Source: Pseudomonadota bacterium
GTDB lineage: Bacteria > Pseudomonadota > Gammaproteobacteria > Burkholderiales > JAKAFK01
Length of the DNA: 64,000 nt
Assembly (NCBI GenBank): GCA_021817985.1
Contig: JAKAFK010000006.1
Coordinates: 1 to 64,000, forward strand
Reading direction: 5' to 3'
The notes below the pieces were generated by a model, which saw nothing but the letters and a program-made list of their open reading frames with translations, searched no databases and was not told where the DNA came from. Below, piece by piece: positions 8,152 through 15,875 of this stretch (positions are counted from its first letter, which is position 1; the number at the start of each line of letters is the position of its first letter). The translations under genes and the position numbers were made by a program.

Positions 8152-9552
8152 ATGGCGCAAGCCGCCCGTGTGCGCAGAAAGCTATTCGTATTGGACACCA
8201 ACGTGCTGATGCACGATCCGTCCAGCCTCTTCCGCTTCGAGGAGCACGACATCTATATCCCGATGGCGACCCTGGAGGAGCTCGATCACAACAAGAAGGG
8301 GATGTCCGAAGTCGCCCGCAACGCACGCCAAGCCAGCCGCTTTCTGGACGAGATCGTGCGCACCTTCGACGGGCGCATCGAGCAGGGGATCCCGCTGAGC
8401 ACCCATAGCCACGGCAGCGCCGCGGGCCACCTGTTCCTTCAGACCAGCGCCCTGAGCTCGGAGATCCCGGCGACTTTGCCGAACAGCAAGGTCGACAACC
8501 AGATCCTCGGCGTCGTCCTCCACCTGAAGGGGCAGCAGCCCAAGCGCCAGGTCACCCTGGTCAGCAAAGACATCAACATGCGGATCAAGGCGCGCGCCCT
8601 GGGGATCGCCGCGGAGGACTATTTCAGCGACAAGGTGCTGGAAGATACCGATCTGCTCTACGCAGGCCTGCGGGAACTGCCGGACGGCTTTTGGGAGACC
8701 CACGGCAAGGGGATCGAGTCATGGACCGAGGCCGGACGCACGTATTACCGCGTGAAGGGCCCGCTGTGCGCAAGCCTGCTGGTCAACGAGTTCGTCTATC
8801 AGGAAAGCGGCAAGCCCTTCCATGCCATGGTGCGCGAGGTGAAAGGCGGCACCGCGCTCTTCGAAACCGTCAAGGATTATACCCACCAGAAGAACAACAT
8901 CTGGGGTATCACGGCCCGCAATCGCGAACAGAATTTCGCGCTGAACGTCCTCATGAACCCGGACATCGATTTCGTCACCCTGGTGGGACAGGCCGGTACC
9001 GGCAAGACCCTCCTCACCCTCGCCGCGGGTCTCATGCAGACACTCGAGCACAAGCTCTACAGCGAGATCATCATGACCCGCGTCACCGTGCCGGTCGGTG
9101 AAGACATCGGTTTCCTTCCCGGGACCGAGGAGGAAAAGATGACCCCCTGGATGGGCGCGCTGGAAGACAACCTTGATGTCTTGAACCACACGGACGAGGA
9201 GGCAGGCGACTGGGGACGCGCGGCGACCCAGGACCTCATCCGGACGCGGATCAAGATCAAGTCCCTCAACTTCATGCGCGGACGGACGTTCCTCAACAAG
9301 TACCTCATCATCGACGAGGCCCAGAACCTGACGCCCAAGCAGATGAAGACCCTGATCACGCGGGCAGGGCCGGGAACCAAGGTGGTCTGCCTGGGGAACA
9401 TCTCCCAGATCGACACGCCCTACCTGACGGAAGGCAGCTCAGGGCTGACCTATGTCGTCGACCGCTTCAAGAACTGGCCGCACAGCGGGCACGTGATGCT
9501 CCAGCGCGGGGAGCGCTCGCGCCTGGCCGACTATGCGGCGGAGACGCTCTGA
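8152..9552 (+). CDS. PIN domain - PhoH-family ATPase
   Basis: A 466-residue two-domain protein. Residues 1-150 form a PIN ribonuclease-type domain starting RKLFVLDTNVLMHDP, with the acidic metal ligands. The C-terminal half is a PhoH/RecD-like ATPase with Walker A GQAGTGKTLLTL and Walker B YLIIDEAQNLTP. This architecture (YlaK/PhoH2 type) is linked to RNA unwinding and cleavage, though the cellular substrate is not settled. The downstream gene is convergent, its last base next to this stop (9552/9553), so no terminator space remains. Confidence 0.88.
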   Translation: MAQAARVRRKLFVLDTNVLMHDPSSLFRFEEHDIYIPMATLEELDHNKKGMSEVARNARQASRFLDEIVRTFDGRIEQGIPLSTHSHGSAAGHLFLQTSALSSEIPATLPNSKVDNQILGVVLHLKGQQPKRQVTLVSKDINMRIKARALGIAAEDYFSDKVLEDTDLLYAGLRELPDGFWETHGKGIESWTEAGRTYYRVKGPLCASLLVNEFVYQESGKPFHAMVREVKGGTALFETVKDYTHQKNNIWGITARNREQNFALNVLMNPDIDFVTLVGQAGTGKTLLTLAAGLMQTLEHKLYSEIIMTRVTVPVGEDIGFLPGTEEEKMTPWMGALEDNLDVLNHTDEEAGDWGRAATQDLIRTRIKIKSLNFMRGRTFLNKYLIIDEAQNLTPKQMKTLITRAGPGTKVVCLGNISQIDTPYLTEGSSGLTYVVDRFKNWPHSGHVMLQRGERSRLADYAAETL

Positions 9553-9921
9553 TCAGGCATCGCCCGGCTTTGCCGCCTCTTCCGGCTGCGTGAGCCGCTC
9601 GTAATGCCGCGCGAACACGACCTCGAGTTCGTCGATGACTTCCTTGGCGGGCTTGCCCTGCATCACATGCTGGGACATATAGTGCGATGTCTCGTGCAGC
9701 AGCTTCGAGGCGTCCACCATCGGATAGGTGGCCCGCAGCCGCTTGATCGCCTTGACGACGCTCTCCTCCACCGGACGCGCAAGCGCAACCGGCGAGCCCA
9801 CGAGTTCCGGCGCGGCCACCTCGTGGCGGCCCGCCAGAAATTCCGCGAACGCCAGCAGCGTCTCCCGCTGCGCGGACGGGAGTCCCCGGAAGTACTTCAG
9901 CAGGCGCTTCTCGTCACTCAT
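9553..9921 (-). CDS. Conserved hypothetical protein, helical, 122 aa
   Basis: I do not recognise a named family. The protein is predicted all-helical: a charged N-terminus (DEKRLLKYFRGLPSAQRETL), a short variable linker, then KAIKRLRATYPMVDAS and a C-terminal helix ending in an acidic tail. It has no membrane segment or signal peptide. Its ATG overlaps the stop of the amidotransferase-like gene by four bases (ATGA), so the two are almost certainly made together and may form a complex. It ends directly against the stop of the phoH-like gene. Confidence 0.7.
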   Translation of the reverse strand: MSDEKRLLKYFRGLPSAQRETLLAFAEFLAGRHEVAAPELVGSPVALARPVEESVVKAIKRLRATYPMVDASKLLHETSHYMSQHVMQGKPAKEVIDELEVVFARHYERLTQPEEAAKPGDA

Positions 9922-10682
9922 TCAGTGTCTCCTCGCTTGTCCGCGGGACGCACGGCCAGGGCGATGACCGGGCGCTTGCGCTGTTCCCTCATCAGGCCGA
10001 GGGCGCCCACCAGCGCCCCCGCAACCCGGTCCGCCGTCGCCTGCCAGTCCGCCCAGCGGCGTCTCGATTCTTCCAGCAATTCTCCGATATCGTCCGGCAA
10101 CTCCCGTCCGTCCTCCATGATCATGTCTTCGATCATGCCCGGCTTGACTTCGGGCCGGAACAGCAAGCCGTAGGTTATGGCATCCGGCCGAATCGCCAGC
10201 CAGCGGCCCGCCTCGTCCACCACGAGGGGCGGGATGCCCGGGGGAAGCGCCATCGTACCTTCGTGCATCACGAGCACCGGCCGGCCATCGACCACCTGGG
10301 CCAGCGGGTCGTCGCGTCCGGCCGGCGCCATTCGCGCCGTCGTCCAATAGGCATGGTGCAGGCGCGGCCCACATGGCGTTGCGCCCGCCGCCCAGGCCAC
10401 GAGGAGCCCCCCGAACCCCAGGCCCACCACGGGGCGCCGCGCACGCTGGAAACTCTGGAGGAGCCGCCGCTCGCTTTTCACCCAGGGACAATGGAGCTCG
10501 TCATCGACGGCGAAGGCGCCGCCGAGCAGCCACAGCGCATCGAAGGCCAGCGCGCCCGCAGGCAACGCCTCGCCGGCGAACGGGCGGCAATAGACGAAGC
10601 CGATGTCGCGCGAGTGGAGCTGATTTTCCACGAGCCCCAAGAATTCAGAATAGCTGTGCTGGACCACCAGAAACGTCTTCAT
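9918..10682 (-). CDS. Class I glutamine amidotransferase-like protein lacking catalytic residues
   Basis: A 254-residue protein with the flavodoxin-like fold of GMP-synthase-type glutaminase domains: TFLVVQHSYSE, then WLLGGAFAVDDE, then PVVGLGFGGLLVA, then GLLFRPEVKPGM. In active members the third motif holds the nucleophilic Cys (GICLGAQL type) and the fourth the His-Pro-Glu dyad. Here the Cys position is Gly89 and the His position is Arg176, so glutaminase activity is not expected. It may be a binding or regulatory pseudo-enzyme. It is coupled to the downstream helical protein by an ATGA overlap. Confidence 0.8.
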   Translation of the reverse strand: MKTFLVVQHSYSEFLGLVENQLHSRDIGFVYCRPFAGEALPAGALAFDALWLLGGAFAVDDELHCPWVKSERRLLQSFQRARRPVVGLGFGGLLVAWAAGATPCGPRLHHAYWTTARMAPAGRDDPLAQVVDGRPVLVMHEGTMALPPGIPPLVVDEAGRWLAIRPDAITYGLLFRPEVKPGMIEDMIMEDGRELPDDIGELLEESRRRWADWQATADRVAGALVGALGLMREQRKRPVIALAVRPADKRGDTE

Positions 10683-10730: not shown

Positions 10731-11657
10731 TCAGGAGGACCGGTCGATGGTCAATTGCGCGGGCGTTTGGGGCGGGGCGTCCTTCAGGAAATCGAGGAAC
10801 GTCTGCAAGAGCTTCGAACGAAATTTCTCGCCTAGGTAGACCAGGGACAAGGGTCTGATGAGCCGGGGAGCCAGTGGCACCGCGACCAGATCGCCCAGCT
10901 TCAATTCTCGCGTGATGGTCGAGCTGGAGACGATGGCGATGCCCAGTCCCGCCTCGACGGCCCCCTTGATCGCCTCGCGGCTGCCCAGTTCCATCGCGAC
11001 GTCCAGATCATCCGGCAGGATGCCCGCCGCCCGGAAATAGCGATCGATGACCTCTCGCGTGCCCGATCCCAGCTCTCGCCCCACATAAGGCTGCTCCGCC
11101 ACTTCCTCGGCGGTGACGGACGACAGGCCGGCGAAGGGATGGGACGGGGCGCAGATCATGACGAGCTCGTCGTCACAGCACACTTCGGTGCTCAGGTTCG
11201 GGTGATGGGAGGGCGACTCGATCAATCCGATGTCCAGGGTATGGTCGCTGATCTTGTTTTCGATCGTCTCGGAGTTCGCCACGGTCAGGCGCGCTTGCAC
11301 CTGCGGATAGCGCGCCTTGAACTGGCCCAGGATTTTGGGCAACAGGTACTCGGCAATCGTGGTGCTCGCCCCGATCATCAGCGGCCCGCTGACCTGCCCG
11401 GTCATCTCGCCCAGGCGCGTCTCCATCTCCCTTGAGAGGTCGAGGATCCGCTCGGCATAGGCCAGCGCGAGTTCGCCCGCGGGGGTGAGGGTGATGCGGC
11501 CGTGGGTACGTTCAAAGAGCCGCGCATTGAAATGCTCCTCGAGCTGCTTGACTTGGAACGTCACGGCCGGCTGCGTCATGTATAAAAGCTCAGCAGCCTT
11601 GGTAAAGCTCAGCTGCTTGGCCACTGTGTGAAAAACCTGAAGGCGTCGATCTGCCAT
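10731..11657 (-). CDS. LysR-family transcriptional regulator (YeiE/CysL/CbbR group)
   Basis: A 308-residue LysR-type regulator. Residues 1-62 are the winged helix-turn-helix (LQVFHTVAKQLSFTKAAELL, then TQPAVTFQVKQLEEHF). The rest is the periplasmic-binding-like effector domain. The segments DIGLIESPSH, RELGSGTREVID and MELGSREAIKGAVEAGLGIA resemble E. coli YeiE and the CysL/CbbR group, which respond to sulfur- or carbon-related signals; the effector here is unknown. The frame extends to 11702, but ATG 11657 gives the family N-terminus. It is divergent from the next gene across an operator-like palindrome at 11710-11730. Confidence 0.85.
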   Translation of the reverse strand: MADRRLQVFHTVAKQLSFTKAAELLYMTQPAVTFQVKQLEEHFNARLFERTHGRITLTPAGELALAYAERILDLSREMETRLGEMTGQVSGPLMIGASTTIAEYLLPKILGQFKARYPQVQARLTVANSETIENKISDHTLDIGLIESPSHHPNLSTEVCCDDELVMICAPSHPFAGLSSVTAEEVAEQPYVGRELGSGTREVIDRYFRAAGILPDDLDVAMELGSREAIKGAVEAGLGIAIVSSSTITRELKLGDLVAVPLAPRLIRPLSLVYLGEKFRSKLLQTFLDFLKDAPPQTPAQLTIDRSS

Positions 11658-11709
11658 AATTGAAGGCCACCGGGGGAAAATGAAGGCGGCATCCCGACGC
11701 AACGGCCGG

Positions 11710-11730
11710 CATGTGTTAACATTTTACATG
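11710..11730. promoter_or_regulatory. Candidate LysR operator, CATGT-N11-ACATG
   Basis: A 21-base interrupted palindrome with the T-N11-A core typical of LysR-type binding sites. It lies 53 bases upstream of the LysR gene start and about 90 upstream of the divergent gene, the usual place for self-regulation and control of a divergent target. Confidence 0.55.
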
Positions 11731-11822
11731 GATTTGCGGCAATCGGGACATCCCGTCTGCCCATGCTGCAGGCAACCGGGCGCGAGGCGAACATGAACGC
11801 GCCCGATCCAGAGAGGTCCGGA

Positions 11823-12377
11823 ATGACGCGAGCGACCTGGAAACGCCTCGATCTCGACGGCGGGGGGCTGCAAAGCGCGAACATGGCCTTTGCACGCCTG
11901 AGAAAGCGGCGCCTTCTTGGATTCGTCTTGCTGCTCCTCTTTCCTCTGGGCTTGCATCGCGCCTATCTGGAAGACCGCCAGGGCGCATGGGCCTATCGCC
12001 TGGCGAGTCTCCTGGCCATGGGCGCCTATTTTGCGGGCTATCCCGCCTTGGCCCTCATCCTCTGCCTCGGACTATGCGTCTACGCGCTCTATGATCTGCG
12101 CTGGATCGACCGGCAGGTCGTCCGCCTGAACAAGGCCTTGCGCCTGCGCGTGTGCCTGAAGCCCGGGCCGGGGATCCCGCCCGGATTCAAGGGGCGGCCG
12201 GGCGAGGTCGATGCCGTCCTGGCGGACTACCTGCGGCAAAAGGAACAAGAGCGCGCGGGCCAAGGACCAGTCGCGGGCGAGCAGGCGGCGGACCCGCCGG
12301 TTCGGCATGCGCCGTCGTTCGCCGAGCAGGAGGCATGGCTTAAGGGCGTGTCGCCCGCCAAGCGGCCCCCACGCTAG
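11823..12377 (+). CDS. TM2-like small membrane protein, 184 aa
   Basis: Function unknown. After a short charged N-terminus the protein shows KRRLLGFVLLLLFPLGLHRAYLED, a second hydrophobic stretch at about residues 58-85, then YDLRWIDRQVVRLNK. This resembles a TM2 domain, two membrane helices with a tight turn. The last 70 residues are charged and Pro/Ala-rich and probably cytoplasmic. ATG 11823 has GAGAGG six bases upstream; in-frame ATG 11793 is also possible and would add 10 residues. It is transcribed away from the LysR gene and may be its target. Confidence 0.65.
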   Translation: MTRATWKRLDLDGGGLQSANMAFARLRKRRLLGFVLLLLFPLGLHRAYLEDRQGAWAYRLASLLAMGAYFAGYPALALILCLGLCVYALYDLRWIDRQVVRLNKALRLRVCLKPGPGIPPGFKGRPGEVDAVLADYLRQKEQERAGQGPVAGEQAADPPVRHAPSFAEQEAWLKGVSPAKRPPR

Positions 12378-12470: not shown

Positions 12471-13736
12471 TTGACAAATAATCGTGCCTTCTACACTACC
12501 GTCACTGCGCAGTTTCTGTCCGCGCTCGCGGACAATGCCTTGCTCTTCGTCGCCATCGCACTCCTTGCGTTTCTGAAGGCACCGAGCTGGCATACCCCCC
12601 TGCTCCAAGAGTTCTTCGTCTTCGCCTACATCCTGCTCGCGCCGGTGGTCGGCGTCTTTTCCGATGCGCTGCCCAAGGGCCGCGTCATGTTCGTCGCCAA
12701 TGCCATCAAGTTCGCCGGGTGCATGGCCATGCTCACGGGCATCGATCCCTTGTACGCCTATGGCATCGTCGGCATTGGGGCGGCCGCGTATTCGCCGGCA
12801 AAATACGGCATCCTCACCGAACTCTTGCCGCCGCAGGAGCTGGTGGCCGCAAACAGCTGGATGGAAGCCTCCACGGTCGCCGCGATCATTCTGGGATCCA
12901 TTTGCGGCGGCATGCTGGTCGATCCGAAGCTGGTGCCGGCGATGCTGCGCTTCGCCCCCACCCTGAATATCGTCAGCGCGCCGCAAGTGGGTATCCTGGC
13001 CGTCGGATTGATGTACCTGCTCGCCGCCCTCGTCAATCTCTATATCCCGCGCGTCGCGATCGATCACCGCACGCCGCGCAAGAACCCGACCTATCTCCTG
13101 CACGATTTCCGACACGCCTTCGCGCTGCTGTGGCGCGACCCGCAGGGGCGCGTGTCGCTCGCCGTCACCACCTTGTTCTGGGGCGTCGGCGCCACGCTGC
13201 GCCTGGTCGTCATCACGTGGTCGGCCCTCGCGCTCAAATTCTCCCTCGGCCAGGCGACGCAGCTTACGGCCGTGGTGGCCATCGGTATCGCCACCGGCGC
13301 GTTCTTTGCCGGCCGCTATGTGCTCCTCGAGAACGCCATCAAGGTACTTCCGGCGGGCATCGCCGTCGGATTCCTGGTCATCAGCATGGTGTTCGTCCAG
13401 CACTGGTGGACCGCCTTCATCGTCATGTTCGCCATCGGAACCCTCGGCGGATTCTTCGTGGTTCCCCTGAACGCGCTGCTGCAGCATCGCGGACACCTTC
13501 TGATGGGCGCAGGCCACTCCATTGCCGTGCAGAACTTCAACGAGAACATCGGTATCTTGCTCCTTCTGGGCGCCTACACGCTGATGATGAAAACGCAGAT
13601 CAACATCAATGCCGTCATTACGATGTTCGGCCTGTTCGTGAGCGGCTCGATGGCCGTCATCTATCGTCGTTGCCGCCAGATCCTGCCCGACCTCGCGCCC
13701 ACCAAACCCATCACGGTGCGCGGCGCCGGCGACTAG
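12471..13736 (+). CDS. lplT: Lysophospholipid transporter LplT-like (MFS)
   Basis: A 421-residue major-facilitator membrane protein. The N-terminal AQFLSALADNALLFVAIALL and the loop GAAAYSPAKYGILTELLPP are strongly LplT-like. In enterobacteria LplT flips lysophospholipids inward for reacylation by Aas; no acyltransferase gene is adjacent here. The apparent start is TTG at 12471, because no in-frame ATG or GTG gives the conserved N-terminus. The ATG at 12431 is in another frame. It ends 41 bases before a convergent deacetylase gene. Confidence 0.85.
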   Translation: MTNNRAFYTTVTAQFLSALADNALLFVAIALLAFLKAPSWHTPLLQEFFVFAYILLAPVVGVFSDALPKGRVMFVANAIKFAGCMAMLTGIDPLYAYGIVGIGAAAYSPAKYGILTELLPPQELVAANSWMEASTVAAIILGSICGGMLVDPKLVPAMLRFAPTLNIVSAPQVGILAVGLMYLLAALVNLYIPRVAIDHRTPRKNPTYLLHDFRHAFALLWRDPQGRVSLAVTTLFWGVGATLRLVVITWSALALKFSLGQATQLTAVVAIGIATGAFFAGRYVLLENAIKVLPAGIAVGFLVISMVFVQHWWTAFIVMFAIGTLGGFFVVPLNALLQHRGHLLMGAGHSIAVQNFNENIGILLLLGAYTLMMKTQININAVITMFGLFVSGSMAVIYRRCRQILPDLAPTKPITVRGAGD

Positions 13737-15032: not shown

Positions 15033-15875
15033 TCAGCCAAACTGCCCGGCGACAATCTCCAGCAAGGCATCGGCCAGATCCGGGTCATCCGTCACCGGGT
15101 TGATCATCGCCACGCGGCACGCCTCCTCGGGCGAGACCCCCACGCTCATCATGGCCGCAGCATAGACCAGCGCACGGGTCGAAGTGGCCTCGTCCAGCCC
15201 GTGATCCTTGAGCGTGCGCGCCTTGCGCCCTGCCGCCACCAAGCGTTCGATGACATCGGCCGCAAGCTCGGGAACCTCAGTCTTGACGATCTTGCGCTCG
15301 ATGTCTTCGCGCGGGAAATCGAAGTTGATGCCGATGAAGCGCTGTTTGGTCGCGGGCCTCAGGTCCCTACCCATGCCCTGAAGGCCCGGGTTGTAGGAAA
15401 TCACCAGCATGAAGTCCTCGTGCGCCTCGATCACCGTCCCGCGCTTCTCGAGCGGCAGCCGCCGCCGATGATCGGTGAGCGAGTGGATGACCGCCGTGCT
15501 GTCGGTGTGCGCCTCGGCAACGTCGTCCAGATAGCAGATGGCCCCGGCCTTGACGGCCCGGGTCAGCGGTCCGTCCTGCCACAGCGTCTGCTCCCCTTCG
15601 CACAGGAAGGAGCCGATCAGATCCCCGGCGGTCAAGTCCTCATGGCAGCGCACCGTGACCAGCGGGCGGCCCAACCGGTGGGCCATATATTCGAGAAAGC
15701 GCGTCTTCCCGCAGCCGGCCGGTCCTTTGAGCATGACGGGCAGGCGCTTCTTGTACGCGGCTTCGAAGATGGCAATCTCGGTGCCTTGCGACTCATAGTA
15801 GGGAAAATCGGCGTCGGAAGGCGGCTGGATGATATCGCGCTCGACGCCCCGCAGGCGGCTCAATAGGCTCTTCAT
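15033..15875 (-). CDS. CbbQ/NorQ-type MoxR AAA+ ATPase
   Basis: A 280-residue AAA+ ATPase with Walker A GPAGCGKT at residues 51-58, followed by the signature region RPLVTVRCHEDLTAGDLIG of the CbbQ/NirQ/NorQ branch. Walker B is YLDDVAEA. These ATPases work with a von Willebrand (VWA) partner, CbbO or NorD, to activate RuBisCO or nitric oxide reductase. No VWA gene lies in this window, so this is an orphan copy or has a distant partner. The gene ends about 90 bases from the AcuC-type gene on the same strand. Confidence 0.85.
   Translation of the reverse strand: MKSLLSRLRGVERDIIQPPSDADFPYYESQGTEIAIFEAAYKKRLPVMLKGPAGCGKTRFLEYMAHRLGRPLVTVRCHEDLTAGDLIGSFLCEGEQTLWQDGPLTRAVKAGAICYLDDVAEAHTDSTAVIHSLTDHRRRLPLEKRGTVIEAHEDFMLVISYNPGLQGMGRDLRPATKQRFIGINFDFPREDIERKIVKTEVPELAADVIERLVAAGRKARTLKDHGLDEATSTRALVYAAAMMSVGVSPEEACRVAMINPVTDDPDLADALLEIVAGQFG

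Follow-up and report, generated by a model that had tools for sequence, protein, structure and literature searches.

A predicted pseudo-glutaminase and the membrane protein that co-occurs with it beside a LysR-linked operon of proteobacteria

In the window, that is the whole stretch of 64,000 nucleotides that was analysed, gene A encodes a protein with the predicted fold of class I glutaminases in which both the catalytic Cys and the catalytic His have been replaced. Judging from the sequences, glutaminase activity has almost certainly been lost, and the protein is probably now a sensor or scaffold without enzyme function. The gene whose presence matches that of A exactly from genome to genome is not its overlapping neighbour, gene B, but gene M, which encodes a membrane protein. 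The features of the locus are listed below.

9918-10682, minus strand: gene A, 254 aa, predicted class I glutaminase fold without catalytic Cys and His (pseudo-glutaminase); from the ORF, conservation and predicted structure
10416-10418, minus strand: codon of Gly89, the position of the nucleophilic Cys; from alignment, invariant in 57 orthologues
10155-10157, minus strand: codon of Arg176, which stands in for the catalytic His; Pro177 and the retained triad Glu178 come next; from alignment
10113-10145, minus strand: KPGMIEDMIME, residues 180-190, nearly invariant, adjoining the former active site and partly common to LipX; from alignment
9553-9921, minus strand: gene B, 122-aa helical protein, member of a wider LysR-B pair; from the ORF, conservation and predicted structure
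9918-9921, minus strand: ATGA overlap of the A stop codon and the B start codon; from the ORF coordinates
10731-11660, minus strand: LysR-type regulator, the gene just upstream of A; the start was placed at the conserved MADRRLQVF, and the open frame extends to 11702
11661-11822, no strand: divergent intergenic region between LysR and M, likely a shared regulatory region; from position only
11823-12377, plus strand: gene M, membrane protein with hydrophobic segments, found in the same genome set as A; the reading frame possibly begins at 11763

On the minus strand the order is LysR regulator, A, B, and M lies on the plus strand, transcribed away from the LysR gene. At the other end, a PhoH gene (8152-9552, plus strand) converges on B. 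The ORF coordinates and lengths of A and B, as well as the residues Gly89 and Arg176, were confirmed in the window as originally described, and so was the four-base overlap, which reads ATGA on the coding strand. Across loci the order LysR-A-B is kept with short gaps or overlaps, and in many of them the A-B junction is an overlap of 4-14 bases or a gap of 2-7 bases. Gene order and overlaps speak for joint production of A and B, probably with the LysR regulator as well.

A few other genes around the operon deserve mention. An LplT-type lysophospholipid transporter (window 12471-13736, NCBIfam PRK11195 above cut-off) adjoins M in many loci, and it adjoins the LysR gene in genomes that have neither A nor M. 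In loci L056, L080, L114, L149 and L150, which come from other families, a membrane protein that resembles AI-2E-type transporters (named by eye) stands directly or closely after B and takes the place of the PhoH gene of the window. Further, an AAA+ ATPase of the CbbQ/NirQ type, also named by eye, is found at 15033-15875 of the window, 4 kb from the operon; it shows 56% identity to a gene adjoining the RuBisCO gene in locus L203, and is present at the same place in a genome of the same genus.

The class I glutaminase fold that had been proposed for A is borne out by the predicted model (pLDDT 84). In a structure comparison with PDB the best match is 8khs (Z 27.1, rmsd 2.5, 226 residues), further matches are 7d54 (Z 24.4) and 1o1y (Z 24.2), and homoserine acyltransferases have the same fold too. 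The sequence of A also matches PDB entry 9xfs with an E-value of 1e-14. The best curated relatives are the glutamine amidotransferase models PRK07053 and PRK06490, both far below cut-off; for PRK07053 the match (E 4e-17, 62.5 bits, cut-off 250) describes a relation that is real but remote. A Pfam search with A gave nothing above threshold, and no GATase (PF00117) match.

Active class I glutamine amidotransferases of the PRK07053, TM1158 and DnfC type are like A in fold (8khs, 1o1y) and can be aligned over the full length, but they have Cys-His where A has Gly-Arg. When A is aligned with intact homologues from the same genomes, Gly89 falls on the column of the nucleophile and Arg176 on that of the catalytic His, in agreement with the original prediction. 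The intact homologues show G-x-C-x-G and H-x-E; in A the triad Glu178 is kept and the motif reads Arg176-Pro-Glu178 instead of His-x-Glu. According to the model, A has the superfamily fold over its full length, and of the features of an active enzyme it lacks both the nucleophilic Cys (Gly89) and His-x-Glu (His lost). Cys-His-Glu is kept in the other homologues aligned with A, except in LipX, discussed below, and in a more distant homologue in locus L131, which has Tyr at position 89. An intact glutaminase paralogue of A is encoded elsewhere in the same genome (locus L002).

The replacements are not a peculiarity of one genome. Gly89, Arg176, Pro177 and Glu178 are invariant in all 41 distinct orthologues of a first set, and Gly89, Arg176 and Glu178 in 16/16 further orthologues, which come from other families of the class. 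Taken together, 57/57 orthologues have Gly and Arg as the fixed residues, a number that may include a few species sampled in both collections, and the losses are not private. The family motif RPE-x-KPGMIEDMIME surrounds the former active site, with KPGMIEDMIME almost unchanged in the orthologues, and no part of A is more conserved than the pocket region. Compared with its same-genus orthologue, A has a dN of about 0.06 and a dS of about 0.32, indicating purifying selection. Because the residues are invariant in the orthologues, the motif is nearly unchanged and dN is far below dS, we conclude that the catalytic pair was lost long ago, and that its absence is fixed and under selection.

The nearest family of A is LipX. 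In Hyphomicrobium it is encoded in a cluster with the order lipS1-lipT-lipS2-slpl-lipX-dsrE, and lipX has been called a putative glutamine amidotransferase (PMC10332631, PMC10451225, PMC11582611). We found LipX-type relatives with Gly at the nucleophile four times in the order and once in the class, and a search at the level of the phylum added five more with LipX-like scores, three with Gly and two with Glu at this position. In other words, the nucleophilic Cys is absent in 10/10 LipX loci of sHdr/lipoate clusters (Gly in 8, Glu in 2; L105:8418-9107, L106:8133-8819, L107:8685-9407, L108:5323-6036, L126:1453-2193 and L205-L209). The triad Glu of LipX is replaced by Gly, and His at position 176 is kept in most. 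At the loci from the order and the class a lipoate ligase (sLpl, TIGR00545-like) is directly upstream and DsrE directly downstream, and radical-SAM-like, geranylgeranyl-reductase-like, sHdr-type and GcvH-like genes are further neighbours.

In a tree from which the catalytic columns were left out, a branch with support 100/99 sets A plus LipX apart from 25 other glutaminase homologues, and the two form separate clades side by side, each with full or near-full support. The sisterhood of A and LipX is well supported by these sequences but not final, because the tree has no root and LipX sits on a long branch; the shared motif argues in its favour. This motif is K-x-x-M-x-E-D-x-x-M-E, in LipX K-x-x-M-V/I-E-D-L-I-M-E, and the two families also have Q-H, E-x-L-G and E-x-x-L-E-x-R-x-I-x-F-x-Y-x-R-P in common. 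They belong to the same fold family, have N-terminal motifs in common and have both lost the nucleophile, and two marks of LipX, a non-Cys residue at the nucleophile and the motif, are present in A. However, A is distinguished by Arg-Pro-Glu, by an extra conserved C-terminal stretch and by a LysR-A-B operon adjoining M, while LipX has Gly at the triad Glu and sits between the genes for lipoate ligase and DsrE. None of the lipS1-lipT-lipS2-slpl-lipX-dsrE or sHdr genes was found near A, either in the window or in related loci. That A itself is LipX is ruled out by gene context and by the tree, where A falls outside the LipX clade.

Second matches in genomes G125, G270 and G254 were ruled out as LipX as well; their gene neighbourhoods are different, and they are ordinary homologues of glutaminases. 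A sixth, weaker match of the phylum search, in G371 (L210:1498-2205), adjoins a hemL-like gene, has Glu at the nucleophile and reads HPQ-x-KSALLEDMVMEYG. It is a third type, a further non-Cys branch of the same glutaminase group.

The description of B as a conserved helical protein was upheld: five helices are predicted, with a pLDDT of 75. Searches of Pfam and NCBIfam with B gave no family, and for the B model Foldseek listed no PDB entry with an E-value better than 1.5. B is present in 21/100 genomes of the order and 102/274 of the class (122/371 after the overlap is removed). In every class locus retrieved around B a LysR gene immediately precedes B, or precedes A where A intervenes. Ten of these genomes in the order and 85 in the class do not have A, 95 of the 122 overall. 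Because so many B genomes are without A, we regard B as the companion of LysR, and A as an insertion between them in some lineages. The LysR-B pair elsewhere is like the window locus in having the same LysR and B and, in many loci, flanking genes for PhoH, a peroxiredoxin and an LplT-type transporter; it is unlike it in that most members have neither A nor M.

The original prediction had coupled A to B, and one part of this holds. The genes appear to be co-transcribed in most loci, with short overlaps or gaps, and B is present in all 27 A genomes searched whole, so co-occurrence in this direction is complete. Neither of the outcomes named beforehand as fatal to the prediction, private and random losses or no co-occurrence, was found. 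However, B is not specific to A, as the many B genomes without A show. In addition, loci L070 and L084, which belong to one lineage, carry A and M with no B within reach, and in the partial locus L085 there is no B adjoining A either.

What tracks A exactly is M, a gene beyond the coordinates that the original prediction had considered, and the idea of B as the specific partner of A is given up. A is present in 11/100 genomes of the order and 17/274 of the class, 27/371 overall; M is found in exactly the same 11/100 and 17/274 genomes, with the exception of two weak M-like matches at 28-29 bits. In genome G321 A and M are on different contigs and M adjoins gpsA/secB-like genes. Because M is on another contig there, the match between the two is not only a by-product of gene order. 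On a quickly built tree of LysR, in which some branches are long, there are 14 changes in the state of A, and at least 6 of them are forced by starred branches. Within the same-genus pairs G089/G046, G245/G356 and G254/G364, A and M differ together. After removing the contribution of LysR the distance correlations are modest, 0.35 for A-B, 0.24 for A-M and 0.13 for B-M, and they fit weakly with A as a link that touches both B and M. The co-occurrence of A and M could also reflect a shared pathway rather than contact.

At its N-terminus M carries an invariant W/GLQ/N pattern and at its C-terminus an S-F-x-E-Q-E stretch, and the latter would suit docking. Searches of Pfam and NCBIfam with M gave no family; M was considered as a TM2-domain protein and this was rejected, with no Pfam or NCBIfam match. 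A perfect T-N11-A LysR box between LysR and M was found in only one genome, and there is none in the intergenic region of the window.

Carriers of A with a name include Sulfuriferula multivorans, Acidiferrobacter and a Competibacteraceae genome, and many carriers are metagenome bins. RuBisCO is present in 26/27 A genomes. In the class it is found in 91/102 genomes with B versus 38/172 without B, counts that are not corrected for phylogeny, and it may mark lifestyle or phylogeny rather than function. In the order, dsrA is present in 13/21 genomes with B versus 7/79 without. As the main trait behind A it is ruled out, being present in only 4/11 A genomes. The regulator cannot be called CbbR, for its 172.8 bits are far below the model cut-off of 450, and a different LysR-like fragment adjoins a RuBisCO gene on another contig. 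It is possible that the LysR-B pair is an uncharacterised regulator of autotrophs.

The reading that we favour, to which we give an even chance, is that A, without catalysis of its own, serves as a scaffold or ligand sensor and acts with M as an accessory of the autotrophy-linked LysR-B operon. With its glutaminase fold and neither nucleophile nor catalytic His, A would be unable to hydrolyse glutamine. The former active-site pocket, formed by Gly89, Arg176, Glu178 and the KPGMIEDMIME helix, may instead bind a small ligand or a partner protein, and M may hold A at the membrane. The A-M pair would then be an addition to an older LysR-B operon that is found mostly in RuBisCO-bearing proteobacteria. 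Most likely, the pair would relay a signal of autotrophic growth, metabolic or redox in nature, to LysR-B or from it, with LysR-B providing the output. One observation argues against a sensor: the sister family LipX sits in a biosynthetic cluster, which suits enzyme assembly rather than sensing.

Taken up as an explanation in its own right, this observation would make A a non-catalytic, LipX-like assembly factor that docks on a carrier protein of the lipoyl type, or on the ligase of that carrier, while a cofactor is assembled or sulfur is transferred. The closeness of the two families in the tree and in their motifs, the nucleophile lost in both, the position of lipX between sLpl and DsrE and the enrichment of dsrA in B genomes all fit this. 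However, none of the loci read has lip, sHdr or lbpA genes near A, no genome among the 100 relatives carries both LipX and A, and dsrA is missing from most A genomes of the order; we find this explanation possible but doubtful. We judge a dedicated complex of A with its helical neighbour B, the model of the original prediction, to be unlikely. The ATGA overlap or very short gaps, the presence of B in every A genome and the highest partial distance correlation, that of A-B, speak for such a complex, but B accompanies LysR with or without A, is without A in most of its genomes, and is out of reach of A and M in L070 and L084.

Another explanation is that A has kept or gained a Cys-independent catalysis through Arg176, Glu178, Lys180 and their neighbours. 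The strong conservation of the pocket would suit this, as would the fact that homoserine acyltransferases have the same fold. Against it, the known enzymes of the class I glutaminase/MetA fold use the Cys-His pair that A is missing, and no common alternative triad is seen, because LipX has HPG or NPG at the same place; we hold this to be improbable. A gene without function, decaying or wrongly annotated, would fit the loss of the catalytic residues taken alone, but this reading is contradicted by a motif invariant in many families, by low dN/dS and by long-kept synteny, which leaves it with hardly any likelihood.

Beyond the favoured scaffold or sensor reading, we put forward a wider picture only tentatively. 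A, M and LysR-B may form a membrane-linked sensory module of chemolithoautotrophic proteobacteria, in which the dead glutaminase reads a metabolite and controls LysR, and A and LipX may make up a wider pseudo-glutaminase clade where catalysis was lost once and the fold found new use in sulfur and carbon lithotrophy.

Pseudo-enzymes that have a glutaminase fold are already known. Mammalian CPS1, which is ammonia-dependent, has kept its glutaminase domain after loss of the Cys. In CPS1 the pseudo-glutaminase is a domain fused to the synthase, whereas A is free-standing with no synthase adjoining. In agreement with the original claim that the system had not been described, searches of the open-access literature found no description of A, B or M; neither the A family nor the A-M pairing nor the loss shared with LipX was found in open-access papers.

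A-type genes can be annotated as glutamine amidotransferases, as all responding NCBIfam models carry that name, and the sequences contradict it. LipX is likewise listed as a putative glutamine amidotransferase in an actively studied pathway, and the ten examined are all without the nucleophile. The exact co-occurrence with M gives A a concrete candidate partner, and the link of LysR-B to RuBisCO points to an unstudied regulator in autotrophic bacteria.
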